Below, piece by piece: positions 234-15,133 of a DNA stretch of 64,000 nucleotides. The notes beneath the pieces are model-generated. The model was not told the origin of the DNA, made no database searches, and was given only the letters and a program-made list of their open reading frames with translations. The stretch comes from a virus, in the IMG/VR virus record IMGVR_UViG_3300028610_000987, positions 55,626 through 119,625 of that record, one strand, 5' to 3'. Position numbers and translations under genes: made by a program. Numbering within the stretch: position 1 is the stretch's first letter; every line of letters starts with the position of its first letter.

Positions 234-272
234 TCTGTGCCTCCTATTGGTATGTCGTGTCCCTTCGTTCTA

Positions 273-1045: not shown

Positions 1046-1059
1046 TCGTGTCCACTCCT

Positions 1060-1281: not shown

Positions 1282-1284
1282 TTC

Positions 1285-2048: not shown

Positions 2049-2063
2049 TTCGTGTACCTTCTT

Positions 2064-2449: not shown

Positions 2450-2664
2450 TATGCTTTCTCCAAACCGAGCCGATTGATCAACAGCGACCAAGTCTCGGAG
2501 ATATCCAGAAGACTAAACCCGCCACGATCTTTGACTCCAACGATCTGCCACTCACAAAGAGTTTCGCAAAAACACAGGAACCCCATCAATCTTGAGTCTT
2601 TGTATATCGAATAAGTGATGACAAACCCGCGATGGCAAGTACCTGGCTTGAGAGAAATGTCCAT
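2449..2664 (-). CDS. Small phage protein
   Basis: 71 residues, ATG start behind GGTAGGG. Contains two Cys (FLCFCETLC region, about 30-36) and a C-terminal amphipathic helix. Looks like a compact beta-alpha fold. No family recognised. Stop overlaps the GTG of the HTH gene. Confidence 0.6.
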   Translation of the reverse strand: MDISLKPGTCHRGFVITYSIYKDSRLMGFLCFCETLCEWQIVGVKDRGGFSLLDISETWSLLINRLGLEKA

Positions 2665-2665
2665 C

Positions 2666-2896
2666 TTACCCTACCTTTCGCGCCATCCCACACTTTCGGA
2701 CGAATCCAAGTAAACCCCATCTTATCGGGACTCTGGCTTTTGCCGCGTGCAGACAGATAGACAGAACAGTGAACACATGTATCGCCTGCTCATCCCCGGT
2801 AGGATTCGTGGACACTTCTTTTAAGTCATGCCACGCTTTGTTGTATCGCCTACAGAGATTCAGATATGCACGTTTATCTGACTTCTTGTACCTCAC
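2666..2896 (-). CDS. Small basic phage protein
   Basis: 76 residues, GTG start overlapping the upstream TAG (TAGTG), the same coupling signature used at 2449, 21880 and 23088. Strongly basic, with helical N- and C-terminal parts and a central hydrophobic helix. Could bind nucleic acid, but no motif is visible. Confidence 0.6.
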   Translation of the reverse strand: MRYKKSDKRAYLNLCRRYNKAWHDLKEVSTNPTGDEQAIHVFTVLSICLHAAKARVPIRWGLLGFVRKCGMARKVG

Positions 2897-3108
2897 TACA
2901 GTTCGCCCACTTGTCTGGCCGTTTCGTCTATGAAATCCTGGCTTAGGCAGAATTTTCCCAGTGTGGAGAAATGGAGTCTGCCTGATACACTGTATATTTC
3001 ACAAACGACTGTGACTACATCCCTGGTCGTGTGGACCGTATAATCAGGTCCAGTTTCGTCGTCACAAACCACCACTACGGGAGTACAATTGCTATTCACA
3101 AAGATCAT
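2896..3108 (-). CDS. Small beta-rich phage protein
   Basis: 70 residues. An upstream in-frame ATG exists, but GGAGG followed by TGGCGAA fits the ATG at 3108, which also overlaps the stop of the preceding small frame as ATGA. Alternating hydrophobic strands (VVVVCDD, VVTVVCEIY) suggest a small beta sandwich. Function unknown. Confidence 0.65.
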   Translation of the reverse strand: MIFVNSNCTPVVVVCDDETGPDYTVHTTRDVVTVVCEIYSVSGRLHFSTLGKFCLSQDFIDETARQVGEL

Positions 3109-3209
3109 TTCGCCACCTCCGAATTTGCCAGAATCCACATGATTTCGTTCGCAGATAACCCCTCGTTTTCCAAATCGCCCCGAGTCAATCCCGTTAGGTC
3201 GATCTCCAC
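3105..3209 (-). CDS. Possible 34-residue protein
   Basis: A leftward frame with acidic, helix-favouring composition (DLENEGLSANEIMWILANSE) that ends in an ATGA overlap with the next gene. The start is uncertain: a GTG at 3209 without a clear ribosome site, or a TTG overlapping the end of the upstream zinc protein. Retained because composition and the coupled stop look genuine. Confidence 0.45.
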   Translation of the reverse strand: MEIDLTGLTRGDLENEGLSANEIMWILANSEVAK

Positions 3210-3219
3210 CGCACTTGAA

Positions 3220-3690
3220 TTAGTCAACCAAGCTATCGTCCATGTCTTGTCCACATTCGGGACAGATTGGCCAACCAGATTCCCTTAAACAACTAAGGAT
3301 TGTTGTTATGTTCATTTTGAGATGAGCCACCTTTTCGCATTTGGAACATGTGAGTTCTACGTCAAACACATGTTTATGGGCGTAGTTCTTCAAGTGCTCG
3401 ATCTGGCCGTCGATTCCTTTCGGAATAGGTAATACCGTGTTCCATCTTTGGTATTCGCGCCAACAATCGGGACAACAGAGGTGTGTCGTCTCTCCATCTG
3501 GAACTTCTGGGTTGTCGTGTGGTCTCCTATATCCGTTTCCAGTCCTTGCCTTTTCTATCGCCAACCCTTTTGTTGGCGCTCCAGGCATATTGTGATCAGG
3601 ACGGTGGTTGCCAGACACACAAGTTGTTAATTTTCCGTTAACCCCACGAACTCCGTCACAGGTGGCTTTGTATACGACTTCTGTTGTCAT
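3220..3690 (-). CDS. Multi-zinc-finger phage protein
   Basis: 156 residues from the ATG behind GGAGGGTACGAAA; five further upstream codons are in frame but poorly placed. Three cysteine knuckles are visible: CCPDC (about 72-76), CSKC (about 115-118) and CPECG (about 143-147). Additional Cys near the N-terminus gives a probable two-site zinc protein. Function unknown; first well-expressed-looking gene after the structured spacer upstream. Confidence 0.7.
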   Translation of the reverse strand: MTTEVVYKATCDGVRGVNGKLTTCVSGNHRPDHNMPGAPTKGLAIEKARTGNGYRRPHDNPEVPDGETTHLCCPDCWREYQRWNTVLPIPKGIDGQIEHLKNYAHKHVFDVELTCSKCEKVAHLKMNITTILSCLRESGWPICPECGQDMDDSLVD

Positions 3691-3699
3691 TTTCGTACC

Positions 3700-3862
3700 C
3701 TCCAAAAACGACCGAATAAGGTAGATTTCCTACTACCGTTGGCTCTGCGCCAGTGGGTGGGTAATTCCCACTATTAACCCGTTGGACGCCTTACGGCTTA
3801 CCCATCGACCCATCAGAGAGATGGTTATTCGGTTCCAAGCAAATATGATAATAGCCAGATTT
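3700..3862 (-). other. Structured non-coding leader
   Basis: No convincing gene. Read leftward, it contains several possible stems, including GTGGG/CCCAC around 3753-3771 and an AAGCCGTAAGGC block, and it ends just before the ribosome site of the zinc-finger gene. It may be a 5' untranslated regulatory RNA. A resemblance to one cobalamin-riboswitch segment was considered and not accepted. Confidence 0.3.
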
Positions 3863-4042
3863 TCACGGAAATCGCCTAACGTCGCTTGCTATTGTTTTCA
3901 CGTCTACCAGTTCAACTTTTAGGCTCGTTGTTTTCTCCGCTGTGACTCTCAACACATGATCAACATGAAAGTCAGCAATCCGTATATCTTTTTCCTCCAT
4001 TATACAAATGTCTTTCCCGTCGATGATTATGTAATATGTCAT
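3863..4042 (-). CDS. 59-residue phage protein
   Basis: Start chosen at the ATG 11 bases after GGAGG. Between ribosome site and start lies a perfect GGTGTT/AACACC inverted repeat that could form a small hairpin or operator. The product is beta-strand rich and charged. A longer frame to 4186 would add a hydrophobic segment but lacks a good ribosome site. Function unknown. Confidence 0.55.
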   Translation of the reverse strand: MTYYIIIDGKDICIMEEKDIRIADFHVDHVLRVTAEKTTSLKVELVDVKTIASDVRRFP

Positions 4043-4467
4043 GGTGTTTAACACCTCCAAAAGCACATGACGATAGCCATCGACGAATACGACGATAGCA
4101 TAAGATCGTATGACGATCACGATCAAATCTCGTACTCCCAACGCCATTTTCCCCACTCTTCCCCACACGGTGACATTGTCCTCCACACGGGTGAAAAATC
4201 ACATATAGGGACCAAACGAGGCTCATATGAGGCGCGACTGTGCAGTAGGAAAAGGTGGGTTTTTGGCCCGATAAAGTCACTTTTTGTCTCGATCTACCCT
4301 ATACCACCTTTACAAGGAACACAAGGAATGCAGAGCGCTCGGAAATGGGACGGACTGGGATTTGGCGCCTGGCACACAGGCACACCAAGACTGTCGATGA
4401 AAAACCCGGAAACTCTTTCTCAGAACCCCGGATAGTTTCCTCGGCGCGCTATGTTTCTATGTTGGAC
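4043..4467 (-). other. Gene-poor spacer, possible leftward promoter
   Basis: I see no convincing gene in these 425 bases. Read leftward, a TATAGG-like -10 occurs near 4299-4304 without a strong -35. Frames on the + strand here are Arg/Thr-rich and lack ribosome sites. Probably regulatory or untranslated. Confidence 0.3.
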
Positions 4468-4542
4468 CTATAACGTACTGATGGTAAACCCTACGATGGT
4501 TCCCAACAAGAACATAAGCCACATGCCCACTTTCATTGACAT
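4468..4542 (-). CDS. 24-residue membrane peptide
   Basis: Starts at ATG 4542 with GGGG 7 bases upstream and ends at TAG 4468. A single hydrophobic segment (about 7-23) follows a Met-Ser-Met-Lys start. It lies directly downstream of another membrane micro-peptide and uses the same AGGGGAAATG leader, suggesting duplicated translation signals. Function unknown. Confidence 0.5.
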   Translation of the reverse strand: MSMKVGMWLMFLLGTIVGFTISTL

Positions 4543-4552
4543 TTCATTTCCC

Positions 4553-4660
4553 CTACATTGTGACGGCGATTGACACCACCACTACAACCACCGCGCCAGC
4601 CACGATCCAATCCAGGACCGTAACCATGCAGTGCATCAAACTCGTGACACGTTCTAGCAT
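4553..4660 (-). CDS. 35-residue membrane peptide
   Basis: ATG at 4660 behind AAGGGGAA. Amphipathic N-terminus followed by a Val-rich membrane helix (about 17-34) containing six consecutive valines. Located just downstream of the tRNA-like gene, so both may share a transcript. Function unknown. Confidence 0.55.
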   Translation of the reverse strand: MLERVTSLMHCMVTVLDWIVAGAVVVVVVSIAVTM

Positions 4661-4678
4661 TTCATTTCCCCTTAAACA

Positions 4679-4748
4679 CGGTCGGACAGGACTCGAACCT
4701 GCAACCTTCCCCCGACTGGGGATGCGCTGCCAATTGCGCCACCGACCT
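4679..4748 (-). tRNA. tRNA-like gene, probably degenerate
   Basis: Read leftward it shows a perfect GCGC/GCGC D-stem with an AATTGGCA loop, a GCAGG-TTCGAGT-CCTGT T-arm and a 6-bp acceptor stem (GGTCGG/CCGACC). The remaining features are imperfect. Position 1 and 72 would be A-G, the anticodon stem closes with A-A, and the loop (CAGTCGG) lacks U33. If functional, the anticodon reads GTC (Asp), but a sound tRNA-Asp exists at 61080. I favour a decayed or decoy tRNA. No CCA is encoded. Confidence 0.5.
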
Positions 4749-5739
4749 AGAAAAGACACGCGCCAACCCACCTTCACGCGCACTCAGACTATTGCGAGTT
4801 ATTAGCCCGCAGTAGCTGACTCCCGACCCGTAGGTCCGTTCCTCTACTTTCTTTTGGATAACATCCAGGCAGATATAATCTGGCAATCTGTTTCTTCCCT
4901 GGATGGTTTCATGTATCCTTATTTTAACGACTATCCGAATCGAGACTGCCGCGCCAGTGCGGTTATCCAGTTTATTCGATCCGCCGTCGTGTCGTGTCGT
5001 TCGGGTGTATCCCAACTTTCCAATGACTCACAACTGCCCGCTGTGCGCCATCGAATGTGGCCTCAAGACAAGAATTGAACCGTGCCTCATATCCGACCCG
5101 CCGACCATCGGAAGTTTCAGCGAACTTCGTCCGACCATTGTGAGAGAAATCAAAGAGGATTAGTTTACAAGACTTGCGCGAATGAGCCCCTATCCCACGA
5201 CAAAAAAAGAGCCTATCACCTGACTGACGAGCGGTTTCCCGAGACGATTCGAGAGATAGTAATACACGACAAAGACCCTTTGCTGTCTTGCTCCCACGGT
5301 GGCTGACACCCGGACCTTGCCAGACAGATAAGGAATCGTGTAGACGAACCGTCACTTATATCCGCCCACGTCATTGACGTAGACTGAGTCTGCAATTCAG
5401 ACTCTGCGTTTTGCCGCTTCTTGGACTGGCTTTTGACCGATAGCCTTGACGATCCCGGTTCAGACCATTGACGCGCTTCCTGCGCCGTCGCCGACCGTAC
5501 TGCGGAGACTACAGACCTACTCCCCAACCCATTCCGGGGATACCCGACGCTTATCGGACTTCCCGCTGAAATTGGTTATGGGAACCGCTGACACTGATTC
5601 TAAGTGTGCCTATAACGACAGGGTGCTACCCTGACAAGCGGCTCTATCCTGACTTATGTCAGAATGTCCATCGTAAAGCGCCCCGACGATTCGAGGCGCT
5701 TCGAGTCAGACACTCTACTCGGACTGTGGACCGACGAGA
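4749..5739. other. GC-rich, hairpin-rich region without a confident gene
   Basis: About 1 kb with no frame I trust on either strand. It is rich in short perfect hairpins: GAGTCTG/CAGACTC near 5388-5406, CAGGGT/ACCCTG near 5620-5634 and CTGAC/GTCAG near 5649-5662. A larger AAGCGCC/GGCGCTT stem lies at its left-transcript end. One exact TTATCGGAC word occurs at 5551. Could hold structured RNAs or decayed tRNAs. Confidence 0.35.
5676..5701 (-). terminator. Stem-loop after the 110-residue leftward gene
   Basis: AAGCGCC pairs perfectly with GGCGCTT across a 12-base loop, 39 bases beyond the stop codon at 5740. The trailing T tract is weak, so termination strength is uncertain. Confidence 0.4.
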
Positions 5740-6072
5740 CTAGACCTTGCCCAAATCCTTGAACGCCTTGCGCGTCGCGCCGGTTGTCGACCTGAGTCCC
5801 ATAAGGGTCTCTGCGATCGTGGCCGCGTTATCGGACCCGAAACCCAGTTCACGGTCGGGGGTGTACTGACCACCCTCTACGACCTGACTTTCGAGCGATT
5901 CCCACGCTGCGGTCAGACCTGCGATGGCGTCATCGACGTTATCGTACCCCGAGCACGCATCGACAATTCGCTTGTGCTGACGATACGTGACGGCGTTTGC
6001 CAAAAACGCATCCTGACCGAACTTCTCGGACGTTCCTTGGGCATCATTCTTGACAGCGGTGTCAATGCTCAT
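5740..6072 (-). CDS. Conserved-looking 110-residue phage protein
   Basis: Starts at ATG 6072 behind GGGAGAAACGT; 41 further upstream codons are in frame but contain translated repeat words and no ribosome site. The protein is helical and acidic, with a Gly-rich C-terminal half ending in a basic Lys-Ala-Phe-Lys segment, which could suit a structural or DNA-associated role. The codons at 5828-5836 contain one TTATCGGAC word. No family recognised. Confidence 0.7.
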   Translation of the reverse strand: MSIDTAVKNDAQGTSEKFGQDAFLANAVTYRQHKRIVDACSGYDNVDDAIAGLTAAWESLESQVVEGGQYTPDRELGFGSDNAATIAETLMGLRSTTGATRKAFKDLGKV

Positions 6073-6292
6073 ACGTTTCTCCCGTATTGACTTGCCGCCC
6101 CAAGAGCCGAGACTACACCGTCCTGACTTATGGGACGGGCCTAGTAGACTCGTTATCGGAACATCACTTATTCGGACCAACCTTGCGTCGGCCACTTATT
6201 ATCGGTCCCTCGCGGGACTTCGGCTTGCGTCCGAGAATAACGAACCGGACCTAGCGTCCGTTTTCGTTCTCTCGTTTTTCATCCTACATAAT

Positions 6293-6321
6293 ACTCTATG
6301 TAAAGTTATACAAAACGTCAA
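6293..6321 (-). promoter_or_regulatory. Leftward promoter (TTGACG-17-TAGAGT)
   Basis: TTGACG at 6321-6316, a 17-base spacer and TAGAGT at 6298-6293, in an A/T-rich pocket 220 bases upstream of the 110-residue gene. The -10 is imperfect, so confidence is modest. Positions 6073-6292 are otherwise empty of genes. Confidence 0.4.
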
Positions 6322-6892
6322 GCGCGGATTGAAAATAAATTTTCGGCCCTGAGAGCCGTCAATCGTCGATATTATCGCACTTTGTCCGATAATGCATGAT
6401 TTGATTTACGTCCGCTTTTTGAGATCATTTATCGGTCAATTGCCTATAATATCCCGTTTATCGCGCCCTAGAAGCTGATTCTTATCGGAAAGTCCTATAA
6501 GATGTGTTACGCGAGTCCTATAATGCGCGAATTATCGGCAAAAAGCGTCCTATAACCGTTAAAATCGCGATATTTTCGGTCGATTCCGATAAAAAAGCAC
6601 GCCCTATAACGAAATCACGGTTAATTGGGTCAAAAACCATGATATTATCACACGTACATAACGATTCCCGGAACGGTCCGATAATCCCGCCCCGCGCTAC
6701 GTCCGATAACCCTCTGGGGGGAGGAAGGTCCGATAAGCAAGACGAGGAAGAGTCCGATAACCATTTGTCCACGAACGTCCGATAACACAGGGACCGATAA
6801 CGAAAAACCCGCTTGGCCCGATAACGGGCATGGCGGTCCGATAACTGCTTTGTGGCTGGTCCGATAACCCATTCTGCGCCATACGATATTCT

Positions 6893-7000
6893 CGGCCCTA
6901 TCCGATAAGTATTCGTGTCCACGCATACAAACCAAACTGTTATGTGCCACGTCCGATAATCGCCCACGGCCCAACGTCCGATAATTTTCTGGTCTGCGCA
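6893..7000 (-). repeat. Paralogous spacer copy I
   Basis: Follows the terminator of unit 2. It shares blocks with 8255-8393 and 9660-9883: a cgataagtattcg-like block, then a cgcataca-accaaac-like block, then a cacggcc-like block and finally cgcaaaga just before the terminator. No gene seen. Positions 6361-6892 are repeat-word sequence without a credible gene. Confidence 0.55.
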
Positions 7001-7026
7001 AAGAAAAAGGTCCGATAATTCGGACC
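7001..7026 (-). terminator. Rho-independent terminator built from the repeat word
   Basis: Read leftward: GGTCCGA, loop ATTA, TCGGACC, then TTTTTCTTT. The 3' arm is a TTATCGGAC word. It lies 24 bases beyond the 85-residue gene and ends the leftward unit that starts near 8134. Confidence 0.8.
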
Positions 7027-7050
7027 CCTGATCTTTTTAGTTATCACCCC

Positions 7051-7308
7051 TTAAAGGATTGGTCCCATAATGTGCCGATTCGCATACTCCCGATAACCGC
7101 CACAAAGAGCGATAATCTTCCGAGTTGGAAGGACCGATAACACCCATTCCAGCGTCCCGACCGCACAGTCCGATAACTCCAAATGGTCCTGGGTATGGTC
7201 CGGTAACCTGTCTCGCAGAATTCCGTCAATTACCGGACGTTCCCACAACGTCCCGAAGGCTGGTCCTATAATCAGGAAATCATCGGCTGTGGTCCTATAT
7301 CTACACAT
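7051..7308 (-). CDS. 85-residue phage protein in the repeat domain
   Basis: ATG at 7308 behind AAGGAGTAGACC. Soluble, mixed alpha/beta, one N-terminal and two internal Cys. It contains three or four translated repeat words (for example YRT at 4-6 and IGP near 14-16), and its last residues are Met-Gly-Pro encoded by a TTATGGGAC variant. No domain recognised. Last gene of the unit transcribed from 8134. Confidence 0.65.
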   Translation of the reverse strand: MCRYRTTADDFLIIGPAFGTLWERPVIDGILRDRLPDHTQDHLELSDCAVGTLEWVLSVLPTRKIIALCGGYREYANRHIMGPIL

Positions 7309-7320
7309 GGTCTACTCCTT

Positions 7321-7354
7321 GTTATCGGCCCAAGAGGGGCGAGGTTCCGATAAC
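7321..7354. repeat. 8-bp inverted pair of repeat words
   Basis: GTTATCGG and CCGATAAC face each other across an 18-base spacer between two leftward genes and could form a hairpin or a two-site operator. It is the clearest case of oppositely oriented words. Confidence 0.5.
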
Positions 7355-7376
7355 CCCACCCGCTCTCCGTCCGATA

Positions 7377-7745
7377 TTACATGCCAGCGGTTCCGATAAG
7401 CTCGCCCGGTGTCTTGATTATAGGACGACCCGAACTGATTTGGTCCCATAATCTCAGGTCCACTTTGCCGACATTATCGGCGTCGTCAACGTCCGAAAAC
7501 AACAGACAGCCGAAGTACCGATAATCGTTCGCCAGCCGTCTTTTCAGTGCTGCTTTAGCCCGATATTTCTTTGTTGCGAAGCTGCACATCCCATAAAGTG
7601 CGCTATGGAAAGGTCCGAGAACTTGGCACAACCACCCATTCTGTACTCGGACGTAGTTGTATCGGACTGTCTTTTTTCGGGCGCTCTTGAACTGGAGCAC
7701 TGTGTCCGATAATACGACTCGACCTGTCTGTCCCATAACTGCCAT
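7377..7745 (-). CDS. 122-residue basic phage protein in the repeat domain
   Basis: ATG at 7745 with GGGAG 6 bases upstream; the second Met (codon 4) lies in a TTATGGGAC word. The middle (about 60-80) is rich in Lys/Arg (KKYRAKAALKRRLAN), suggesting nucleic-acid contact. The C-terminal part is acidic then Gly/Pro-rich. No family recognised. Several repeat words are embedded in frame. Confidence 0.7.
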   Translation of the reverse strand: MAVMGQTGRVVLSDTVLQFKSARKKTVRYNYVRVQNGWLCQVLGPFHSALYGMCSFATKKYRAKAALKRRLANDYRYFGCLLFSDVDDADNVGKVDLRLWDQISSGRPIIKTPGELIGTAGM

Positions 7746-7765
7746 GATTGACTCCCGTCCTATAA

Positions 7766-8077
7766 TTATTCCGACAATCGCCTCGCGATTATCAGACGTT
7801 CCCGCTTGCTGAACTTCCGATAACGTAATCGGGCCACCAAGCTGTTGTTAGTCCCATAACGTGCGCTCGCCCACAGGCCGAGTCCGATAAATCCATAAAC
7901 TGCTACTTCAAAAGAATGCGCCATCAACCAGAGTCCGATAAAGATGATGATCGGAAATGCGACACATCCCATTATCCATCCGATAATAATTGTCTCGCCT
8001 CCGGGCGCTTGACTATCGGATTTAACGTCCGATATTTTGCCGCTTGCCACTAGGTCCGAATAGTCGATGAGTCCCAT
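7766..8077 (-). CDS. Two-pass membrane protein in the repeat domain
   Basis: 103 residues; the start codon is the ATG of a TTATGGGAC word, with AAAGGG upstream. Hydrophobic segments at about 28-50 and 56-75 predict two membrane helices. A strongly basic C-terminal tail (RLRYRKFSKRERLIIARR) should be cytoplasmic. First gene behind the promoter at 8106-8134. Function unknown. Confidence 0.7.
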   Translation of the reverse strand: MGLIDYSDLVASGKISDVKSDSQAPGGETIIIGWIMGCVAFPIIIFIGLWLMAHSFEVAVYGFIGLGLWASARYGTNNSLVARLRYRKFSKRERLIIARRLSE

Positions 8078-8105
8078 AATTTATTCCCTTTCGTGCTTAC
8101 ACTGA

Positions 8106-8134
8106 AGTATAGGATACCTGCGCCGGAATGTCGA
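8106..8134 (-). promoter_or_regulatory. Leftward sigma70-like promoter, unit 2
   Basis: TCGACA (8134-8129), 17 bases, TATACT (8111-8106), 29 bases before the membrane-protein start. A repeat word (GGTTATCGGC) abuts the -35 on its upstream side, as at 9564-9569. Confidence 0.65.
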
Positions 8135-8393
8135 GCCGATAACCTATAAATCCAAAAAACTTTCTTCGTCCTATAATGTGCCCTTTTCTGTCCTGCTGCC
8201 CCATGCGTGCATTATATGCCACGCCCAATAATCCTCACGCCCCATAACTTCGCCGCGCTACAAAACCGCGATTCTGAGCCCCAATCCGAATACTTATCGG
8301 CCACACATACGCACGCCAAACGATTACCGGCCACGTCCTATAATAACTCACGGCCCTACGGTCCGATAATGTTCTAATCGGCGCAAAAGAAAA
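8135..8393 (-). repeat. Paralogous spacer copy II
   Basis: About 260 bases without a gene between the unit-1 terminator and the unit-2 promoter. The end nearest the promoter (cgataacctataaatcc.. then ttcgtcctataa) resembles 9575-9612. The end nearest the terminator resembles 6893-7000. Contains about ten repeat-word variants. Confidence 0.55.
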
Positions 8394-8413
8394 GGGTCCG
8401 ATAATTCGGACCC
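8384..8413 (-). terminator. Rho-independent terminator built from the repeat word
   Basis: GGGTCCGA, loop ATTA, TCGGACCC, then TTTTCTTTT when read leftward; near-identical to the terminator at 7001-7026. It ends the unit started at 9569, 14 bases after the last stop codon. Confidence 0.8.
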
Positions 8414-8426
8414 AGTGTTATTCTAG

Positions 8427-8783
8427 TTATCGGTCCATCGGCGAGATGGGCTCATGGTCCGAAAACAATTCGAGATGCCGAACCGCGATCGGTCCGATAA
8501 TTTCTTCCCATCGTCGCTTCATGTCAGTTATCGGTCGTACCGGCTCACCGTTGAGCGCATCCAACATTCCGATAATCTCCCGTTTTTCGGTGTTATCCAA
8601 CGTCTGATAACATTCAATGGAAACCTTGTTTTGGTCCCAAAACCAATGTAGTTTCTGGACCATATGGAAACGTCCGATACCTTCCGGCTTCCTGCTGAGC
8701 CGATAATTGCCACTTGTTATCGGAGTACGAGAGTACGTCCGAATAATCGAAATCCCATGTGGAGAATAGTGAAAAACCAACAT
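8427..8783 (-). CDS. 118-residue phage protein in the repeat domain
   Basis: Start set at ATG 8783 behind GGAGCGATAAT; a longer frame to 8867 overlaps the previous gene and lacks a ribosome site. The protein has a beta-rich N-terminal half with aromatic residues (FHYSPHGISI) and a helical acidic C-terminus. Translated repeat words account for several PIT, IIG and IGP tripeptides. No domain recognised. Last gene of unit 1. Confidence 0.65.
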   Translation of the reverse strand: MLVFHYSPHGISIIRTYSRTPITSGNYRLSRKPEGIGRFHMVQKLHWFWDQNKVSIECYQTLDNTEKREIIGMLDALNGEPVRPITDMKRRWEEIIGPIAVRHLELFSDHEPISPMDR

Positions 8784-8784
8784 A

Positions 8785-9042
8785 TTATCGCTCCTTGATT
8801 GCCAGTTGTGCCGTCCGATAATTCGTATGTAAACGTCCGATAGTGATTCGGTTACGCACCGTATCATGTCCGATAAGCCGTATCGAACCGGATGTAAGTG
8901 TTACTGTAACGAAGCCATCTTGTTCCGATAACGTCCTGGCGAACAGCGTCCCATAACTCATCGCCATCTGGTCCGATAAGTTAGTCTCGTGCGCCTCTGG
9001 GCAATTATCGGTCGCCGGAATCGTGATCGTTGCACGTCCCAT
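8785..9042 (-). CDS. 85-residue phage protein in the repeat domain
   Basis: Start codon is the ATG in a TTATGGGAC word, with GGAGG exactly 5 bases upstream. Beta-rich and Thr-rich with no membrane segment; carries LSD and IGR repeat tripeptides. Function unknown. Second-last gene of unit 1, one base from the next start. Confidence 0.65.
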   Translation of the reverse strand: MGRATITIPATDNCPEAHETNLSDQMAMSYGTLFARTLSEQDGFVTVTLTSGSIRLIGHDTVRNRITIGRLHTNYRTAQLAIKER

Positions 9043-9053
9043 AATATCCTCCT

Positions 9054-9131
9054 TTAGAACCATAGTCCGAGAACTGTGATGATAATCGTGTGTCCGATAA
9101 CCATCATCCAGAATTGTTTTTCGCGTCCCAT
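9054..9131 (-). CDS. 25-residue membrane peptide
   Basis: ATG within a TTATGGGAC word behind GGAG. After Gly-Arg-Glu-Lys-Gln comes one hydrophobic helix (about 8-25). The start and spacing leave little doubt that it is translated. Likely a membrane-inserted micro-protein. Confidence 0.6.
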   Translation of the reverse strand: MGREKQFWMMVIGHTIIITVLGLWF

Positions 9132-9135
9132 AATA

Positions 9136-9405
9136 CTACTCCGTAAAGCACTGGAAAGAACAGTCCGGTAATCCTCGATACTGCGAATTCCGGAAATTGT
9201 TGGACCCATAACATCCGCATTGCCACCATCCTGCGATGGCTGAATTTCGGACCAAACCCTGTCCGCAATTAGGACACTTGCCCGTAGAAACGACCGATAT
9301 TGCCTCGGCTTTGCATTCGGCAAGGCGTTTTTTATCACACGTAAGGCACGTCCCAGAATAACGGCTTCTCACGCGCCCACAACGACATTTTAATCTGAGT
9401 CCCAT
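9136..9405 (-). CDS. Zinc-ribbon protein in the repeat domain
   Basis: 89 residues, ATG in a TTATGGGAC word behind AAAGGGATAAT. Cysteines occur as CRCG (6-8), CLTC (about 19-22), CPNCG (about 43-46) and CGC (about 62-64), enough for two zinc sites. Its start lies just after the stop of the 35-residue gene (TAATTATG). Function unknown. Confidence 0.65.
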   Translation of the reverse strand: MGLRLKCRCGRVRSRYSGTCLTCDKKRLAECKAEAISVVSTGKCPNCGQGLVRNSAIAGWWQCGCYGSNNFRNSQYRGLPDCSFQCFTE

Positions 9406-9407
9406 AA

Positions 9408-9515
9408 TTATCCCTTTCTGTGCCACTGTCCGGTAACATCGTACAGATCGGCTGCGGTCATCGGAAGTTTAGGTCCGAAAAAAAACTCTTTGATTGTCGT
9501 CAGCAAACGTCTCAT
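9408..9515 (-). CDS. 35-residue phage protein, first gene of unit 1
   Basis: ATG at 9515 behind AAGGGGATAATT, 26 bases after the promoter -10. Basic N-terminus, a FFFG segment, then an acidic helix. Uses the same ribosome-site layout as the next gene. No family recognised. Confidence 0.6.
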   Translation of the reverse strand: MRRLLTTIKEFFFGPKLPMTAADLYDVTGQWHRKG

Positions 9516-9540
9516 AATTATCCCCTTTTTGCTTCACTAC

Positions 9541-9569
9541 ATTATACGATTCAAAAACCAGGAAATCAA
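9541..9569 (-). promoter_or_regulatory. Leftward sigma70-like promoter, unit 1
   Basis: TTGATT (9569-9564), 17 bases, TATAAT (9546-9541). A GGTTATCGGGC repeat word precedes the -35, as at the unit-2 promoter. It drives five genes from 9515 to 8427. Confidence 0.75.
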
Positions 9570-9883
9570 GCCCGATAACCAACTATTACAAAATTCTTTT
9601 TTCGTCCTATAACTATGGCCATGGCTAGCCGTCAGCCCCGAAACGTCGTTATTACAGGGACCGTCTTATAAGTATTCACGTACACGACCACAGACCAAAC
9701 GATTACCCGGACCGTCCGATAATGCCCTCACGGCGGTCCGATAACTACTACTCTACTGCTGAACGTCTGATAACTAGATGAGAGAGAGAAGGTCTGATAA
9801 CTAGAACTGTCGCTGCGAGGTGTTGGTCTGATAACTACTGCTGCTTGGTAGTCCGATAACCTCACGATACTGGCAAACGCAAA
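9570..9883 (-). repeat. Paralogous spacer copy III
   Basis: About 310 bases with no gene I trust. It shares the order of blocks seen in copies I and II but carries an extra run at 9764-9840 in which GTCTGATAACTA recurs four times, separated by short GAGA-rich or GC-rich spacers. Frames here encode only repeat-derived peptides. Confidence 0.55.
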
Positions 9884-9901
9884 GGGCCGATAACTCGACC
9901 C
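9878..9901 (-). terminator. Degenerate repeat-word terminator
   Basis: GGGTCGA, loop GTTA, TCGGCCC, TTTGCG read leftward. It occupies the same position as the terminators at 7001 and 8384 but has one mismatch and a poor T tract, so it may leak. Confidence 0.45.
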
Positions 9902-9921
9902 CATTCGGCGCGTCGTCTTTG

Positions 9922-10179
9922 TTATAGGACGCAATGGAAAGCGTCCGATACTGCTATGCCGTACTGGCACGTCTCATAACTTGGCCAGTTTATCGGAAGT
10001 CTAGGAGCATGGTCGTAATTATCGGTCGTTTCTACGATGTCGGCGTCGATGTCCGATAACCATTTCAGAAAGTCTGATAACCAAATGGTTGGAATTACTG
10101 CATACTCGGACCACCACTTATCGGAACCGCAAACCTCTTCGGCGATCTTGGTCCGATATTTCACAAATGTCATTTGCAT
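9922..10179 (-). CDS. 85-residue phage protein in the repeat domain
   Basis: Start chosen at ATG 10179, one base after the lipoprotein stop; an alternative start lies 18 codons upstream in a TTATGGGA variant. Acidic and aromatic, with in-frame LSD and YRT words from the repeat. No domain recognised. Last gene of unit 3. Confidence 0.55.
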   Translation of the reverse strand: MQMTFVKYRTKIAEEVCGSDKWWSEYAVIPTIWLSDFLKWLSDIDADIVETTDNYDHAPRLPINWPSYETCQYGIAVSDAFHCVL

Positions 10180-10180
10180 G

Positions 10181-10342
10181 TTATTGGCCCATCCCATAAC
10201 AGTTGTTGTTATCGGAGCACACGAAGTGGCCACTGTTCGGTCCGATAACTCCGATGCCTTCGGCGGTCCGATAAAGTTTTAGGTCACATCCGGATGTTAG
10301 TCCGATAAGAGCCAGGATCACGAGTCGTCCGATAATCTTCAT
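10181..10342 (-). CDS. Small predicted lipoprotein
   Basis: 53 residues: basic MKIIGR start, hydrophobic segment, then a lipobox LTSGC with the modifiable Cys at 19, and a short Cys-containing mature part. The repeat word is translated at least five times here (IIG, LIG, YRT, IGV, IGP), even within the signal peptide. The ribosome site is weak (GCGAAGAA). Phage lipoproteins of this size often block superinfection or phage-receptor function; that role is inference. Confidence 0.6.
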   Translation of the reverse strand: MKIIGRLVILALIGLTSGCDLKLYRTAEGIGVIGPNSGHFVCSDNNNCYGMGQ

Positions 10343-10381
10343 TTCGATTCTTCGCTCGTTGCGAGGTTATGTCCGATAACT

Positions 10382-10501
10382 CTAGCCACCGATGGCTGCT
10401 TGAATTTCGGACGTTACATGAGAGAAGAGTCCCATAACTTTAGAAACAACGACCCAACCGATAGTGGCCGTCACTGCGAGTCCGATAAGTTTGGTGGTCA
10501 T
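10382..10501 (-). CDS. 39-residue membrane peptide, first gene of unit 3
   Basis: ATG at 10501 behind AAAGGC. One membrane helix (about 5-25) with two in-frame repeat words (LIG and VMG). Followed after 39 bases by the lipoprotein gene. Function unknown. Confidence 0.55.
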   Translation of the reverse strand: MTTKLIGLAVTATIGWVVVSKVMGLFSHVTSEIQAAIGG

Positions 10502-10542
10502 GGCTTTGCCTTTCGTTCGTTTGGTGTCTCTATCCTATCTAC

Positions 10543-10571
10543 ATGATAGCATTAGTTATACCGAATAGCAA
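10543..10571 (-). promoter_or_regulatory. Leftward sigma70-like promoter, unit 3
   Basis: TTGCTA (10571-10566), 17 bases, TATCAT (10548-10543), 42 bases before the first gene of unit 3. Weaker match than the unit-1 promoter. Confidence 0.5.
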
Positions 10572-10881
10572 GAGAAAAGGAAAAGAATCTTTTGGTCCGA
10601 TAACTCGCCTTGCTCGTCGAGCAAGCAAGGTCTGATAACAAGCTGATAGCATAGTCTGATAACAAAAGGAAGGTACTAGTCCGATAACGGAACTCGGTTG
10701 GGGGTCGCCCGGAAATATGGATAGGTCCGATAACTCGGGTGGGTCCGATAACCCATGGGGGTTTAGGCACAACAGGGTCAAAAAAGCCAGAGCCTACAAC
10801 TTTTCGTGTACATGATATCTAACCCAGAGCCCATTCGCTTTACCCCATACACTTTTTTCCCAAAAAAAATCGAAGACACTT
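10572..10881. other. Divergent intergenic region
   Basis: No gene seen. The left part (to 10751) carries seven repeat words, including exact copies at about 10595, 10679, 10723 and 10743. The right part is A/T-rich and leads into the first rightward promoter. It separates leftward unit 3 from the rightward block. Confidence 0.5.
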
Positions 10882-10910
10882 GGCACAAGCGATGCAGTTG
10901 CACGTATAAT
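10882..10910 (+). promoter_or_regulatory. Rightward sigma70-like promoter
   Basis: GGCACA (10882-10887), 17 bases, TATAAT (10905-10910), preceded by an A-tract. One of six promoters in this window with the same GGnACA-17-TATAAT plan and an ACG just before the -10. Confidence 0.75.
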
Positions 10911-10930
10911 GGAATAGAAGGAGAAATGAT

Positions 10931-11080
10931 ATGTTGACGAAGAAACAACGAGACGAGATTCGCAAAGGACTTGTTCATTGTGATTTAAGTCCCTTGGATG
11001 AGAGCGAACGTAACCTAGAAACTTGCCTCAACGATCTAGACGAGAAAGACATCATCATCAAGCAATTCGAAAATGAGTGA
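10931..11080 (+). CDS. 49-residue acidic helical protein
   Basis: ATG at 10931 behind GGAGAAATGAT, 21 bases after the -10. Charged, predicted entirely helical with a Leu-repeat character (LDESERNLETCLNDLDEKD). First gene of the rightward block, so likely expressed immediately after infection. Function unknown. Confidence 0.6.
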   Translation: MLTKKQRDEIRKGLVHCDLSPLDESERNLETCLNDLDEKDIIIKQFENE

Positions 11081-11156
11081 GGTAGACTCCCGCTCTTCCC
11101 CCCTCTCTTTCCTCCACCCCCCCGTATTATCGGCTAGAAAAAAATCGAAACGAAGT

Positions 11157-11206
11157 GGGACAAGGGTGTGTGTTTCACGTATAATAAGGTATCAGGAGTA
11201 CCTGAT
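11157..11206 (+). promoter_or_regulatory. Sigma70-like promoter with AGTA-loop leader hairpin
   Basis: GGGACA (11157-11162), 17 bases, TATAAT (11180-11185). A hairpin ATCAGG-AGTA-CCTGAT at 11191-11206 lies at the expected 5' end of the transcript. The promoter at 16234-16262 has the same arrangement with a different stem sequence. Confidence 0.7.
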
Positions 11207-11241
11207 CCCAGAGCTTCGCACGGTTTTTGAAAGAAACAGAT

Positions 11242-11355
11242 ATGAGTTTTTTTACTGCCTTACTATGCGGTGTGATTTGTACAGCGATAATAGCCTTTGT
11301 GGCGATCAAGTTCGTTGTCCCTTTCATGGATCATATTAGTAATCGACTAGTATGA
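11242..11355 (+). CDS. 37-residue membrane peptide
   Basis: ATG at 11242, weak AAAGAAA ribosome site. A single hydrophobic stretch (about 3-29) followed by a polar tail. First gene after the hairpin leader. Its stop codon is followed by a CTTTTTGCGTCCTGCT segment repeated at 14226. Function unknown. Confidence 0.55.
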   Translation: MSFFTALLCGVICTAIIAFVAIKFVVPFMDHISNRLV

Positions 11356-11360
11356 ACTCC

Positions 11361-11376
11361 CTTTTTGCGTCCTGCT
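11361..11376 (+). repeat. Direct repeat CTTTTTGCGTCCTGCT, copy 1
   Basis: An identical 16-base word recurs at 14226-14241. In both cases it begins just after a TGA stop codon and precedes the next ribosome site. May be an RNA processing or regulatory site. Confidence 0.45.
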
Positions 11377-11391
11377 CCCCTGGAGATCGTA

Positions 11392-11529
11392 ATGTCTATT
11401 TACTCGCCGTATCCGGACAACGAAAGAGACAAACAGATAAATAGAGAAGTCAACAGATTTGTTGCGCGGTGCTTGGCTATATCATTTGGTCTGCTTGTCA
11501 TCGTGTGTTTCGTTGCTGCAATAGTCTAA
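11392..11529 (+). CDS. 45-residue membrane protein
   Basis: ATG behind GGAG with 6-base spacing. Charged N-terminus (about 1-25) and one C-terminal membrane helix (about 27-45): a tail-anchored single-pass protein. Function unknown. Confidence 0.6.
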   Translation: MSIYSPYPDNERDKQINREVNRFVARCLAISFGLLVIVCFVAAIV

Positions 11530-11543
11530 AAGAAAGAAAAAAA

Positions 11544-11870
11544 ATGATCACCGTAACAAAATTAGCTGCACGAGAAATAAAGAAGATCATCGAAGAGAAG
11601 AACAGATCGACAGACCTGTATCTTCGCATTGGAGTCCTGGGTGGAGGTTGCAGCGGCTTCCGTTACTCTCTAGAACTGACAACGGAAAAGACAGACAACG
11701 ATGAGGTTTATCCTCAACACGGTATCGTGGTTATCTGTGATCCCAAGAGTCATCTGTATTTAGATGGCACAACGGTAGGCTTTAGTGACGAAGTCATGGG
11801 TCGTGGATTCGTGTTCAATAATCCTAACGCCACCAATCGTTGTGGATGCGGAAGCAGTTTTTCAGCTTAG
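11544..11870 (+). CDS. A-type iron-sulfur carrier protein (IscA/ErpA family)
   Basis: 108 residues, the normal family length. IscA/ErpA proteins bind Fe-S clusters and hand them to apo-enzymes. The three ligand cysteines are present: Cys36 in GGGCSGF, and Cys100 and Cys102 in the C-terminal CGCGSSF. I start at the ATG preceded by an A-rich leader with AAGAAAG; a longer frame overlaps the previous gene. A phage copy may keep host Fe-S supply running or mature a phage Fe-S enzyme, but no obvious client is in the window. Confidence 0.9.
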   Translation: MITVTKLAAREIKKIIEEKNRSTDLYLRIGVLGGGCSGFRYSLELTTEKTDNDEVYPQHGIVVICDPKSHLYLDGTTVGFSDEVMGRGFVFNNPNATNRCGCGSSFSA

Positions 11871-11878
11871 AGGAAAAA

Positions 11879-11911
11879 ATGACTCCATCTATTATTGAGC
11901 CAAAGGAATAG
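11879..11911 (+). CDS. Possible 10-residue leader peptide
   Basis: AGAGGAAAAA directly precedes an ATG opening ten codons that end in TAG, 4 bases before the next gene start and containing its AAGGA ribosome site. It could couple translation from the IscA-like gene to the next one. Low confidence as a protein. Confidence 0.3.
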   Translation: MTPSIIEPKE

Positions 11912-11915
11912 AAAA

Positions 11916-12212
11916 ATGTTTCAACCTACAACATACGTCAAGATCATCTGTGTCCTGCTTGTTATCAAAGGCATGTCTTTGTACTATGAGGACTTTATTG
12001 CCTTCACTGCCGACAACGAATATATGACCGAATGTATCATGCACGATCCGCTCACACCTGTCGATTATGAATTTTATTATCTCGATGAGGCGGTTTACGT
12101 CGTCACTTACGAAGGACGTACCCGATGGAACGGCGAAAAATGCAAAGAGCGTAAATGCGTGGATGTCACAGAATACAGGCGAGCTAAGGCTGTCGTTGGA
12201 GAACAGAAATGA
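11916..12212 (+). CDS. Membrane-anchored 98-residue protein
   Basis: ATG behind AAGGAATAG. One N-terminal hydrophobic segment (about 6-23) acts as anchor or uncleaved signal. The following acidic domain has a CxxxxC pair near the C-terminus (KCKERKC), suggesting an exported domain. ATGA-type overlap with the next gene. Function unknown. Confidence 0.65.
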   Translation: MFQPTTYVKIICVLLVIKGMSLYYEDFIAFTADNEYMTECIMHDPLTPVDYEFYYLDEAVYVVTYEGRTRWNGEKCKERKCVDVTEYRRAKAVVGEQK

Positions 12213-12658
12213 ATAGTTTGACCACGAAGGAATACGATACGATTACAAACAGGAATCTTTGTCCTGACTGCGGTGCTAAGAACCAATTTTTGGCTGGACC
12301 ATGTGGTGGTGGAAGTCAGAACATTATATGCGCCGTATGTCACATGAGATTCAACATCGGCCCTGGCTCTGGCGAACGCATCGGAAAAGAAGAACATGTC
12401 AAGCTTGATCCGATCGCTATTGATGAAGGAACCATGTCTTGGAGCAAACAAAATAGATTCGAGTACTTAACACATTCGTGTGGCGGAAGTCTTGATCTAC
12501 ACACGATTGATCATGATACATCAGCCTTGTTGTGTAGAAAGTGTGGAATGAGGCAGGTGTTTAAGGACCATCGAATCGTTGATATGGAAACCACTTCTTA
12601 CAAGACTCTTGCTTTTTTCGAGTATATCCGTGACAACAACCCTATTACTGGGAGATAG
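12209..12658 (+). CDS. Zinc-finger phage protein
   Basis: 149 residues. Two cysteine sets: CPDCG (about 18-21) with CAVC (about 41-44), and CGG (about 91) with CRKCG (about 109-112). These make two zinc ribbons, the second possibly Cys/His. No catalytic motif seen. Typical of phage proteins that bind nucleic acid or RNA polymerase, but unproven. Confidence 0.7.
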   Translation: MNSLTTKEYDTITNRNLCPDCGAKNQFLAGPCGGGSQNIICAVCHMRFNIGPGSGERIGKEEHVKLDPIAIDEGTMSWSKQNRFEYLTHSCGGSLDLHTIDHDTSALLCRKCGMRQVFKDHRIVDMETTSYKTLAFFEYIRDNNPITGR

Positions 12659-12660
12659 AA

Positions 12661-12978
12661 ATGAAAATAAGACACTGTGATCGATGTCACAAGGAAATTA
12701 AACCTGATGCTCCAGATGCGGTTCAGCATGAAGAAGATTTCTTCGTGATCAAAGTGGAGCACATGGCGAAGATCGGCAGTTGCGTGAGTTCATGGGAGAC
12801 GATCGAAATGGAAGTATGCAAAAAATGTGCTAAGCACGTACTTCCTGAAACCGAATTCAAGGGTCTTCCGTCAGAAGTGGTGGCAAAGCGGCAGGCAGAA
12901 GTGAGTGACATACCCCAATCACACGCCGCATCTTTTTTCAATGAGTCGGGAAAGATCACTAGAGGTGAAAAGCCATAA
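12661..12978 (+). CDS. Zinc-binding phage protein
   Basis: 105 residues. CDRCH at 6-9 and CKKC at about 58-61 frame a beta-rich core, the layout of a treble-clef or rubredoxin-like knuckle pair. The C-terminal 30 residues look disordered. Stop overlaps the next ATG (TAATGG). Function unknown. Confidence 0.7.
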   Translation: MKIRHCDRCHKEIKPDAPDAVQHEEDFFVIKVEHMAKIGSCVSSWETIEMEVCKKCAKHVLPETEFKGLPSEVVAKRQAEVSDIPQSHAASFFNESGKITRGEKP

Positions 12979-13190
12979 TGGCTAAAGACCTTAGACACTT
13001 CGATGTAGAAGACAAAGACTTGGGATTTGATCACATATGGGTTATCGTCAATGACAGCAATTTTGTACAGACTTCGTGTTGGTCTGAAATCTATCGCGAT
13101 TTATGGCTCAAAGAACATCCAACCCATGTGGCTATTCGATACGAGAAAACGAACCCGACCCCACCAGATTGTCTGGGAGAGGATCAGTAA
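12978..13190 (+). CDS. 70-residue phage protein
   Basis: Soluble, Trp- and aromatic-rich (four Trp), no recognised fold. Coupled on both sides by TAATG overlaps, so clearly part of the same translated chain. Function unknown. Confidence 0.65.
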   Translation: MAKDLRHFDVEDKDLGFDHIWVIVNDSNFVQTSCWSEIYRDLWLKEHPTHVAIRYEKTNPTPPDCLGEDQ

Positions 13191-13618
13191 TGGATGAGAA
13201 AATAACTGGATCACTTTTGAACGGGAACTTGATTGCGATGTATGTCCTGTTCCATGACGGCACAAAGCCATATAAGACACTGGCATTTACCCTAGACAAT
13301 TGCGATCTGATGAACGTGGATATCGACGATCGCGGAGAGCCTATGGGGGTAGAAATCATATACGTGGATTCTCCGACAGACAAAGGGTGTTTCATATTCG
13401 ACACCAATCACAGAGCGAAAAAAGAAGCAATCGTGCGACGGCTACTTGCTGCAATCACTCGTTTGACCATGATTCGTATGATGCAAGAGGCTCTGACTGA
13501 GGAAGTCAATATGTGTCTCAATGTGATCGTAGACAGCGGCATGTACTCAACGACCGATTTCAACATAGTAGACGGCAAATGCAAGGTAATCCAAAAGAAT
13601 CCGGAGGATGAGTCGTGA
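13190..13618 (+). CDS. 142-residue phage protein
   Basis: Starts at the ATG overlapping the previous TAA. N-terminal beta-rich part, then a basic segment (HRAKKEAIVRRLL, about 77-90) and a Met-rich helix, ending in a beta-rich acidic tail. No family recognised. Confidence 0.65.
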   Translation: MDEKITGSLLNGNLIAMYVLFHDGTKPYKTLAFTLDNCDLMNVDIDDRGEPMGVEIIYVDSPTDKGCFIFDTNHRAKKEAIVRRLLAAITRLTMIRMMQEALTEEVNMCLNVIVDSGMYSTTDFNIVDGKCKVIQKNPEDES

Positions 13619-13827
13619 GTTATTTTTGCCAAGTATGTGGAACAACAGACCTTAAACTGAAACACGTCAGAGTCTATCTGAACTGGTTCCCTAACTGCGG
13701 TGATGCGCCACAAATGGAATTGCTTGATCCAGATGAAAAAACGGATCATGGAGTAGTGTTGTGTTCTGGCTGCATCTGCTGTATGGCTGCGAAAGCGATG
13801 GAACAAGGTCTGGTAGCAGGGACTTAG
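13615..13827 (+). CDS. Zinc-knuckle phage protein
   Basis: 70 residues, GTG start overlapping the previous TGA (GTGA). CQVCG at 5-8 and CSGCICC near 50-56 give a four- to six-Cys site. Small, single-domain; function unknown. Confidence 0.65.
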   Translation: MSYFCQVCGTTDLKLKHVRVYLNWFPNCGDAPQMELLDPDEKTDHGVVLCSGCICCMAAKAMEQGLVAGT

Positions 13828-13836
13828 GAGCAAATT

Positions 13837-14040
13837 GTGGGAAAGTGCAATACTGCCCAATGTTGTTTTTGCAAGGCGTATATCGTGAATCAAAGTAGAC
13901 ATCGCATAATCATCGACAAAGTTGATATGGCTGGAATTGTCCGTAAAAACGTGGACCAGTATCCTAACATATGCGACGATTGCATGGCCGAAGTCCGGAG
14001 AGCGATAGGCAACCTCGACATGTCCAAGCCGCCAGGATAA
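13837..14040 (+). CDS. Zinc-binding phage protein
   Basis: 67 residues, GTG start behind GGAGCAAATT. CCFC (about 9-12) and CDDC (about 46-49) form a treble-clef-like pair with a basic linker. Similar in size and layout to the neighbouring gene at 13615. Function unknown. Confidence 0.65.
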   Translation: MGKCNTAQCCFCKAYIVNQSRHRIIIDKVDMAGIVRKNVDQYPNICDDCMAEVRRAIGNLDMSKPPG

Positions 14041-14055
14041 TATGAGGAAAAATAA

Positions 14056-14223
14056 ATGAACAACAAAAATGTGTTGATTGAGTTCGCATTGATAGTTTCT
14101 ATGGTTTTGATCATTACATCAATATTTCTCCTGTGGATTAACACTTCTGCGACCCCCATACAGAGCCAAGAAACACCCCTAGACAAAACGATCTACCCCA
14201 GGATGTACCAGGACTACCCTTGA
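14056..14223 (+). CDS. Single-pass membrane protein
   Basis: 55 residues behind GAGGAAAAATAA. One membrane helix (about 6-29), then a short Pro/Gln-rich outer or periplasmic tail. Function unknown. Confidence 0.6.
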   Translation: MNNKNVLIEFALIVSMVLIITSIFLLWINTSATPIQSQETPLDKTIYPRMYQDYP

Positions 14224-14225
14224 AC

Positions 14226-14241
14226 CTTTTTGCGTCCTGCT
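14226..14241 (+). repeat. Direct repeat CTTTTTGCGTCCTGCT, copy 2
   Basis: Identical to 11361-11376 and again directly after a TGA stop codon. Confidence 0.45.
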
Positions 14242-14249
14242 GAGCCAAT

Positions 14250-14360
14250 ATGAGAAAAATGCACAAACAACCCATAGGAGTCAGAAATGACAAGAATGGC
14301 TGTGCTCGTATCGCGATTGTCAAAGATGGCGTTTGGTACTGGACAGATTATTTGTATTAA
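14250..14360 (+). CDS. 36-residue basic peptide
   Basis: Begins at the ATG after the direct repeat; ribosome site weak (GAGCC). Basic N-terminus then aromatic C-terminus (VWYWTDYLY). Composition looks like a small beta hairpin domain. Moderate confidence only. Confidence 0.45.
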   Translation: MRKMHKQPIGVRNDKNGCARIAIVKDGVWYWTDYLY

Positions 14361-14377
14361 GAGAGGCAGGCAATTTC

Positions 14378-14551
14378 ATGCTACAACAGTGTTGTGTCAA
14401 ATGTGGAACAGATGTCGATGAAATCAACCTATTCTCGATTGGTGGGTGTATTCTAACCGAGAAGAACGAAAAGTGCGAGATCAAGGTGTATCTATGTAGT
14501 GGGTGTCGCGATGAATTTTGGAATGACTTCATAGGCGAGAAGCCTATCTAG
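14378..14551 (+). CDS. 57-residue zinc-binding protein
   Basis: ATG behind AGGCAGG. CCVKCG at 5-9 and CSGC at about 42-45 make a zinc ribbon-like site in an acidic protein. Belongs to the series of tiny Cys-rich proteins in this block. Confidence 0.65.
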   Translation: MLQQCCVKCGTDVDEINLFSIGGCILTEKNEKCEIKVYLCSGCRDEFWNDFIGEKPI

Positions 14552-14559
14552 GAGAAAAC

Positions 14560-14850
14560 ATGTTAGATACAAACAAGACGAGTAACTGGCAAATTGGTGT
14601 TGTTGTCGTAATGATTATAGTGGCTATAGTGTCTGGTTGTTTATTTCTTGCTTTGCGAGATACCGTGTATTCTTGCGAGTGCGTCCTTACTCAACCATTA
14701 GTTGCTGTCTCAGGAGAGATTGAGTATCCTGGTACAATATATTCTGTGACGTGTCGCGGGACGACAAAAGGGACAGGTAAAGTTTGTACGAAGTCTGTGT
14801 GGGTTACAATGTCCGAGTATGAGCGGGTGATGTATGGGAGGAAGAACTGA
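14560..14850 (+). CDS. Membrane-anchored or lipoprotein-like protein
   Basis: 96 residues, ATG behind GGAGAAAAC. Hydrophobic segment at 12-33 contains VSGC, which fits a lipobox, so this may be a lipoprotein rather than a simple transmembrane protein. The exported domain has four more Cys. ATGA overlap with the next gene. Function unknown. Confidence 0.6.
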   Translation: MLDTNKTSNWQIGVVVVMIIVAIVSGCLFLALRDTVYSCECVLTQPLVAVSGEIEYPGTIYSVTCRGTTKGTGKVCTKSVWVTMSEYERVMYGRKN

Positions 14851-15122: not shown

Positions 15123-15133
15123 GAGTGTTGTCA

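Follow-up and report, generated by a model that had tools for sequence, protein, structure and literature searches.

Why would a phage write one nine-base word more than a hundred times into 4.4 kb of its genome, through genes and the gaps between them alike? The question is raised by what we call the window, a stretch of 64,000 nucleotides of phage DNA (positions 55,626 to 119,625 of virus record IMGVR_UViG_3300028610_000987, an IMG/VR contig of 119,625 bp), in which the word GTCCGATAA and its close variants fill positions 6361 to 10760. A first-pass annotation, made from the letters alone, had noticed this array and named a protein-binding array, an RNA-level signal and a spreading micro-repeat as candidate roles. 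We find that the word matches the XerC arm of the chromosomal recombination site dif, that the array holds a dif-like core, and that unrelated phages share such arrays. The reading that fits best, and that we hold to be rather more probable than all the others, is of a Xer recombination site with extra XerC half-sites as accessory sequences, hugely extended in this phage group.

The excess of the word is real. As GTCCGATAA or TTATCGGAC it occurs 39 times in the window, against a mean of 0.54 and a maximum of 2 in 100 shuffles, close to the 0.5 copies per 64 kb first estimated. Of these, 36 are + strand copies within 6384-10751, matching exactly the hand count of about 36; positions 5551 and 5828 carry two oppositely oriented copies, and the remaining copy is at 32341. 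One-mismatch forms of GTCCGATAA between 6 and 11 kb number 53 on the + strand and 22 on the − strand. Under a relaxed definition, GTCCNATAA, in which position 5 is free and one mismatch is allowed, the array at 6361-10760 contains 120 words, 100 on the + strand and 20 on the − strand, where 4.4 +/- 2.2 would be expected in a first-order Markov sequence. Base composition thus does not account for the density, and the word is not equally dense elsewhere, the other 55.6 kb of the record holding one exact copy. At position 5 of GTCCNATAA the + strand words have G 36 times, C 11 times, T 8 times and A never.

The identity of the word comes from dif, the site at which XerC and XerD resolve chromosome dimers. 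GTCC[G/C/T]ATAA is the XerC (left) arm of published and newly located bacterial dif sites. The Myxococcus dif reads AGGTCCGATAA-CATGCG-TTATGTAAACT, and the left arm is ACGTCCGATAA in Anaeromyxobacter, GTCCCATAA in Geobacter and Desulfovibrio and GTCCTATAA in Syntrophus (PMC2731167). A survey of 2011 did not predict dif in its single planctomycete (PMC3025954). Among 59 relatives of a Sedimentisphaerales metagenome-assembled genome, 41 have a single match to the pattern GTCCNATAA-N6-TTATGT, 2 have two and 16 have none, while its reversed-word control gave one match across all 59. Full sites in these genomes read like ACGTCCCATAA-TATATG-TTATGTTTCAT, and the free letter of GTCCNATAA in them is C in 30, T in 9, G in 6 and A in none, the same set of letters, without A, as in the array. 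Two further genomes, reached through contigs L079 and L104, have ACGTCCGATAA-N6-TTATGTTCGGT, and where genomes with such a dif were checked, most had genes for two Xer proteins of full length. Since both the published left arms and the Sedimentisphaerales-related sites match the word, its identification as a Xer half-site, the XerC arm of dif, is well supported by sequence. Counts of the word across whole host genomes gave little, being mostly near chance. The Sedimentisphaerales genome itself has 92 copies against 5 of the reversed word, an excess made up of scattered single copies in a genome where the reversed word is a poor control.

The array also contains a complete site. The dif-like core at 6490-6517 on the + strand, AAGTCCTATAA-GATGTG-TTACGCGAGTC, consists of a XerC-type arm (6490-6500), a centre (6501-6506) and a XerD-type arm (6507-6517), and across eight related phages the arms are conserved and the centre is variable. 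An inverted XerC-type half-site, TTATCGGAA, abuts the core at 6482-6490 on the − strand and is intact or nearly so in most relatives. A direct half-site, GTCCTATAA, overlaps the end of the right arm at 6515-6523 on the + strand, at +23 from the core’s XerC arm, and a half-site at this position is also found in L014 and L063. Chromosomal dif has the same left arm, GTCCNATAA, a 6-bp centre and a right arm TTATG.., but is a single 28-bp site, whereas the isolated XerC half-sites around a phage core number from some tens to over 100.

The arrangement recurs in other phages. A second lineage of seven contigs (L016, L034, L035, L036, L039, L066 and L088) has a complete core, GTCC[G/T]ATAA-N6-TTATGTnnnnn, amid an array; in L088, labelled Phycisphaerales, the array adjoins a terminase small subunit. 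Five of the seven have half-sites at -67, -37, -14, +30/31, +47, +63 and +77, in fixed orientation and separated by diverged spacers. In L055, L250, L279, L282 and L290 the core finishes with TTATGTTTCAT or TTATGTTGCAT, which is also how dif finishes in the Sedimentisphaerales-related genomes, as its right arm. By the proteins shared in the stretches compared, the core-bearing contigs make up three lineages and one singleton, and the conserved arms set at a fixed distance about a variable centre of 6-8 bp that characterise a Xer site are present in the window’s group and in the second and third lineages. Words up to 150 bp downstream of cores mostly run in the same direction as the core’s XerC arm (53 against 12), and those upstream tend to be inverted (32 against 18). 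Each core-bearing record has one core, apart from a single record with two.

The first-pass annotation had argued that selection or active spread targets the word rather than a protein, and our comparisons favour selection. The density of words is 25.7/kb in coding and 28.7/kb in noncoding DNA, and words within genes use all three frames, as LSD, IG and YR or YG. In relatives about 70% identical, word columns are 85-96% identical and their flanks 68-83%, a difference somewhat inflated by alignments that seed on words. The differences between relatives are substitutions at homologous places and not insertions. Gaps between words on the same strand peak mainly at 24-27 bp, the spacing of about 24 bp first described, with further peaks at 15-16 and 33-37 bp that had been missed; the peaks are about 10-11 bp apart, phasing that is suggestive of a protein on double-stranded DNA, given data pooled partly from homologous arrays. 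Equal coding and noncoding density, the use of three frames, conservation of the word and quasi-helical spacing together indicate that selection is on the word itself, and make a protein-binding array, one of the roles proposed at the outset, the likeliest class.

The array proved less uniform than the single domain of mostly one orientation originally described. That description fits the 100 of 120 words on the + strand, but a left wing at 5551-6380 extends the array to about 5.5 kb, with sparser words that lie mostly on the − strand (TTATNGGAC on the + strand). The switch in orientation occurs left of about 6.4 kb, near the core. The gene beneath the left wing (5.5-6.4 kb) is also leftward, and the word orientation is reversed there nonetheless. 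With leftward transcription on both sides of the switch, word orientation does not follow transcription.

Searching related phages for equivalent arrays, as had been suggested, found them in many other viral contigs. Three exact words in a row occur in 59 stretches of viral contigs with guanine-cytosine contents of 33-67%, most with unrelated spacers; the reversed-word control gave 12 stretches, with repeat-like spacers in multiples of 3 bp, and the count under a relaxed scan was 95. Arrays are present in more than 50 other viral contigs, mostly in non-tandem form, and the array-bearing contigs form several groups by shared proteins, the window’s own group having members of 113-180 kb. One contig, IMGVR_UViG_3300009788_000102 (L051), is 99.95% identical to the window over 12.7 kb (2794-15451); this is the same phage sampled twice, so it is not independent evidence. 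Two scans for close relatives of the array genes found only one near-identical contig and one distant relative. We set aside many bacterial matches as tandem repeats or as repeats within coding sequence (SDN/SDK).

Full-length phages of the window’s group encode a Xer-like recombinase of about 295 aa, which keeps all the catalytic residues and is about equally close to the XerC and XerD models; the phage Xer gene lies around G000:C1:16136-16639. A search of 37 other array-bearing records, several longer than 95 kb, detected no Xer-like relative, although it had no internal positive control, and PF00589 matched only the already known Xer-like proteins in the same array-bearing records. The 37 records point to a host protein, and host XerC would be the simplest common factor binding the arrays.

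How might such an array work? XerC, from the host and possibly together with the phage’s Xer-like recombinase, would bind the core and be loaded onto the array of half-sites. The polar nucleoprotein complex formed in this way would bring cores together and control Xer recombination; its architectural protein would be XerC itself, in the part taken at cer and psi by PepA with ArgR or ArcA. The outcome could be resolution of multimers of a plasmid-like genome, or integration and excision. Multimer resolution fits because there is one core per genome and the centres are unlike host dif; classical integration at dif is unsupported because the centres do not match. In other phages the complex would take a compact form of about 300 bp with fixed geometry, and here it would have grown into a coated domain of 4.4 kb that overrides codon choice. 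That XerC coats the array and that recombination is served are both things we infer from sequence. The wider proposal, that unrelated phages build accessory complexes of XerC half-sites around a dif-like core and that one group has expanded them into a kilobase-scale, XerC-coated domain dictating protein sequence, seems to us evenly balanced between right and wrong.

Known systems resemble the array in part. The stoperators of cluster A mycobacteriophages and the repeated elements of SPbeta likewise consist of a short protein-bound word repeated many times within one phage genome. These are dispersed and lie mainly in intergenic DNA, whereas here the words form one dense domain, equally dense in coding DNA, with a recombination core. 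Nor do the words keep one orientation to transcription or a mostly noncoding position, as a stoperator would; their orientation reverses. Closer are cer of ColE1 and psi of pSC101, in which a Xer core has, as here, an adjacent accessory region, there ensuring productive synapsis (PMC11724359, PMC5357621). Their accessory DNA is about 180-200 bp and is bound by PepA with ArgR or ArcA, whereas here it consists of XerC-type half-sites, extends up to 4.4 kb and runs through genes. Ordered accessory sites beside the XerC arm, the mark of cer and psi, are seen in the fixed positions of the five second-lineage phages. The integrative mobile elements exploiting Xer (IMEX) CTXphi, VGJphi, TLCphi and XacF1 carry dif-like sites with a conserved XerC arm and a degenerate XerD arm, as here (PMC3025954, PMC5357621). 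The IMEX described are filamentous or satellite elements with no mention of half-site arrays, whereas the phages here encode terminase and have centres that do not match host dif, and no integration was seen. The att core of Rhizobium etli IntA, TCCGATAAG-CATTAC-TTATCGGAC, uses the same half-site word in a symmetric integrase core; the passage on it reports no array (PMC4928290), which the window has. Searches of the open-licence literature on half-site arrays, accessory sequences and phage use of Xer gave no description of such arrays. The first-pass annotation had known of no described phage system that matches; it had missed the XerC arm, the core and the sharing by unrelated phages.

Several observations weigh against a Xer site with accessory half-sites. 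No accessory sequence known needs anything like as many half-sites as the 120-150 or so present here. In the window the core’s right arm, TTACGCGAGTC, does not look like a host-type XerD arm, the phage centres (GACAGG, TTGGCG, GATGTG and others) differ from the TATATG/GATATG type of host dif, and some phage arrays have no recognisable core. No prophage was seen at the 20 dif loci and two second sites covered, which showed only background word counts. The partly homologous spacing data and the seeding of alignments on words count on the same side.

The very large number of half-sites without a XerD arm, the sacrifice of coding DNA to the word and the array-bearing phages with no detectable Xer of their own would also suit a decoy, by which the phage soaks up host XerC and alters host dif or Xer-dependent events during infection; binding alone would suffice. 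A sponge, however, needs neither the fixed geometry of the second lineage, nor the conserved core of the window’s group, nor polarity, and we think this explanation unlikely. A little less likely still is a silencer, in which a phage or host Xer-like protein would act as a repressor on the half-sites and switch the leftward domain off, much as SPbeta probably uses its recombinase-like repressor at its own repeats. Within one leftward domain words do occupy promoters, start codons and terminators, and full-length phages of the group do encode a Xer-like protein, but that protein retains all its catalytic residues, none was detected in the 37 array-bearing records, and noncoding density is not notably above coding.

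Xer enzymes might instead shuffle small gene cassettes between phages at a recombination hot-spot, like the pdif modules of Acinetobacter plasmids. The small orphan genes and the variable length and collinear order of relatives would suit this, but a complete core occurs just once, no XerD arm accompanies the other copies, and relatives differ at words by substitutions and not by clean cassette joins, which makes the idea improbable. Least probable is a functionless spreading micro-repeat or an RNA-level signal, the two other roles first proposed. Tandem copies of the same 9-mer do occur in some bacterial genomes, but here the spacers are unrelated, the words are conserved, and relatives differ by substitutions at homologous places where a spreading repeat would leave insertions. 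The reversal of orientation within one direction of transcription led us to reject an RNA signal, which the phasing of about 10 bp also opposes.

The layout of the array shows how far the word intrudes on genes, all of which lie on the − strand. A gene-free stretch at 6676-6867 has, on the + strand, seven exact words and two variants, 15-27 bp apart and with spacers unrelated to one another. Words lie inside the coding sequence of a small open reading frame at 7051-7308 and of another reading frame at 9922-10233, and in all frames of one of 146 aa at 8427-8867. In the 122-aa gene at 7377-7745, conserved in the phage group, they read LSD, IG and YG/YR by frame; the 110-aa gene at 5740-6072 is likewise conserved in the group and has no family match. 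The gene at 7766-8077 starts TT-ATG-GGAC and has a word-shaped hydrophobic stretch (FIGLW, FIGLG, RYGT, RYRK). The words in start codons and terminators reported earlier are real: TTATGGGAC overlaps start codons at 8071, at 9036 (word 9036-9044, gene 8785-9042) and at 9399 (word 9399-9407, gene 9136-9405, with zinc-ribbon-like CxC/CxxC motifs). An intrinsic terminator at 7006-7029 has a stem built of words (GGTCCGAATTATCGGACC and a T run), and a second of the same kind is at 8394-8413, both on the − strand. A 131-bp repeat, 78% identical between 6919-7045 and 8301-8431, includes a word-built terminator and its surroundings. An Rfam scan of 1-12000 found a tRNA and nothing else.

By eye, an IscA/HesB-like iron-sulphur protein is encoded at 11469-11870 and, elsewhere in the record, a ClpP-like protease (L068:15439-16092) and a ThyX-like protein (L068:17016-17873). 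A phage-borne tmRNA (transfer-messenger RNA) with the tag peptide GESQFRMAA is at 58250-58600, near genes for tRNA-Phe, tRNA-Ala, tRNA-Asp and tRNA-Thr.

Word arrays also appeared in contigs of other kinds. L101, labelled Heimdallarchaeota, has an array at 3900-5810 with proteins resembling, by eye, those of the 7377-7745 and 8785-9042 genes; it adjoins Gly-Ser-like low-complexity sequence with N runs and is probably a piece of phage that was joined on during assembly. In L079 (7380-7475), L104 (2257-2330) and L139 (1867-1921) small arrays have, by eye, a tRNA or tmRNA gene on one side and one resembling a recombinase gene on the other; in L139 a protein of 526 aa matched nothing in Pfam. Integrase arm sites, suggested by the bacterial contigs L104, L139 and probably L079, were rejected as a general explanation, most array-bearing phages having no integrase near the array. 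Intergenic arrays of GTCCGATAA/GTCCGATAT occur in chromosomal DNA of the Bacilli contigs L071, L112, L144 and L141, where the period is strictly 21 bp and the 12-bp spacers are mostly unrelated; as dif left arms in such genomes read TTCCTATAA/TTCCTAGAA, the repeated words there may be Xer half-sites too. Bifidobacterium contig L129 has four intergenic words at 34-35 bp spacing (6890-7140), in a genome with a candidate dif, TTGACCGATAA-GGTACG-TTATGTCAGAT.

Once a host is known, the word can help to locate its dif, and it has provided a clear dif candidate in the relatives of the Sedimentisphaerales genome. In the array, a signal written in DNA takes precedence over codon choice to an extreme degree. 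XerC has been known as half of a two-site enzyme; its half-site arrays, present in three or more phage lineages, suggest that XerC or a relative can also organise DNA, or gate recombination, by coating it. Such arrays appear to be new, and point to a form of control over Xer recombination that has not been described.

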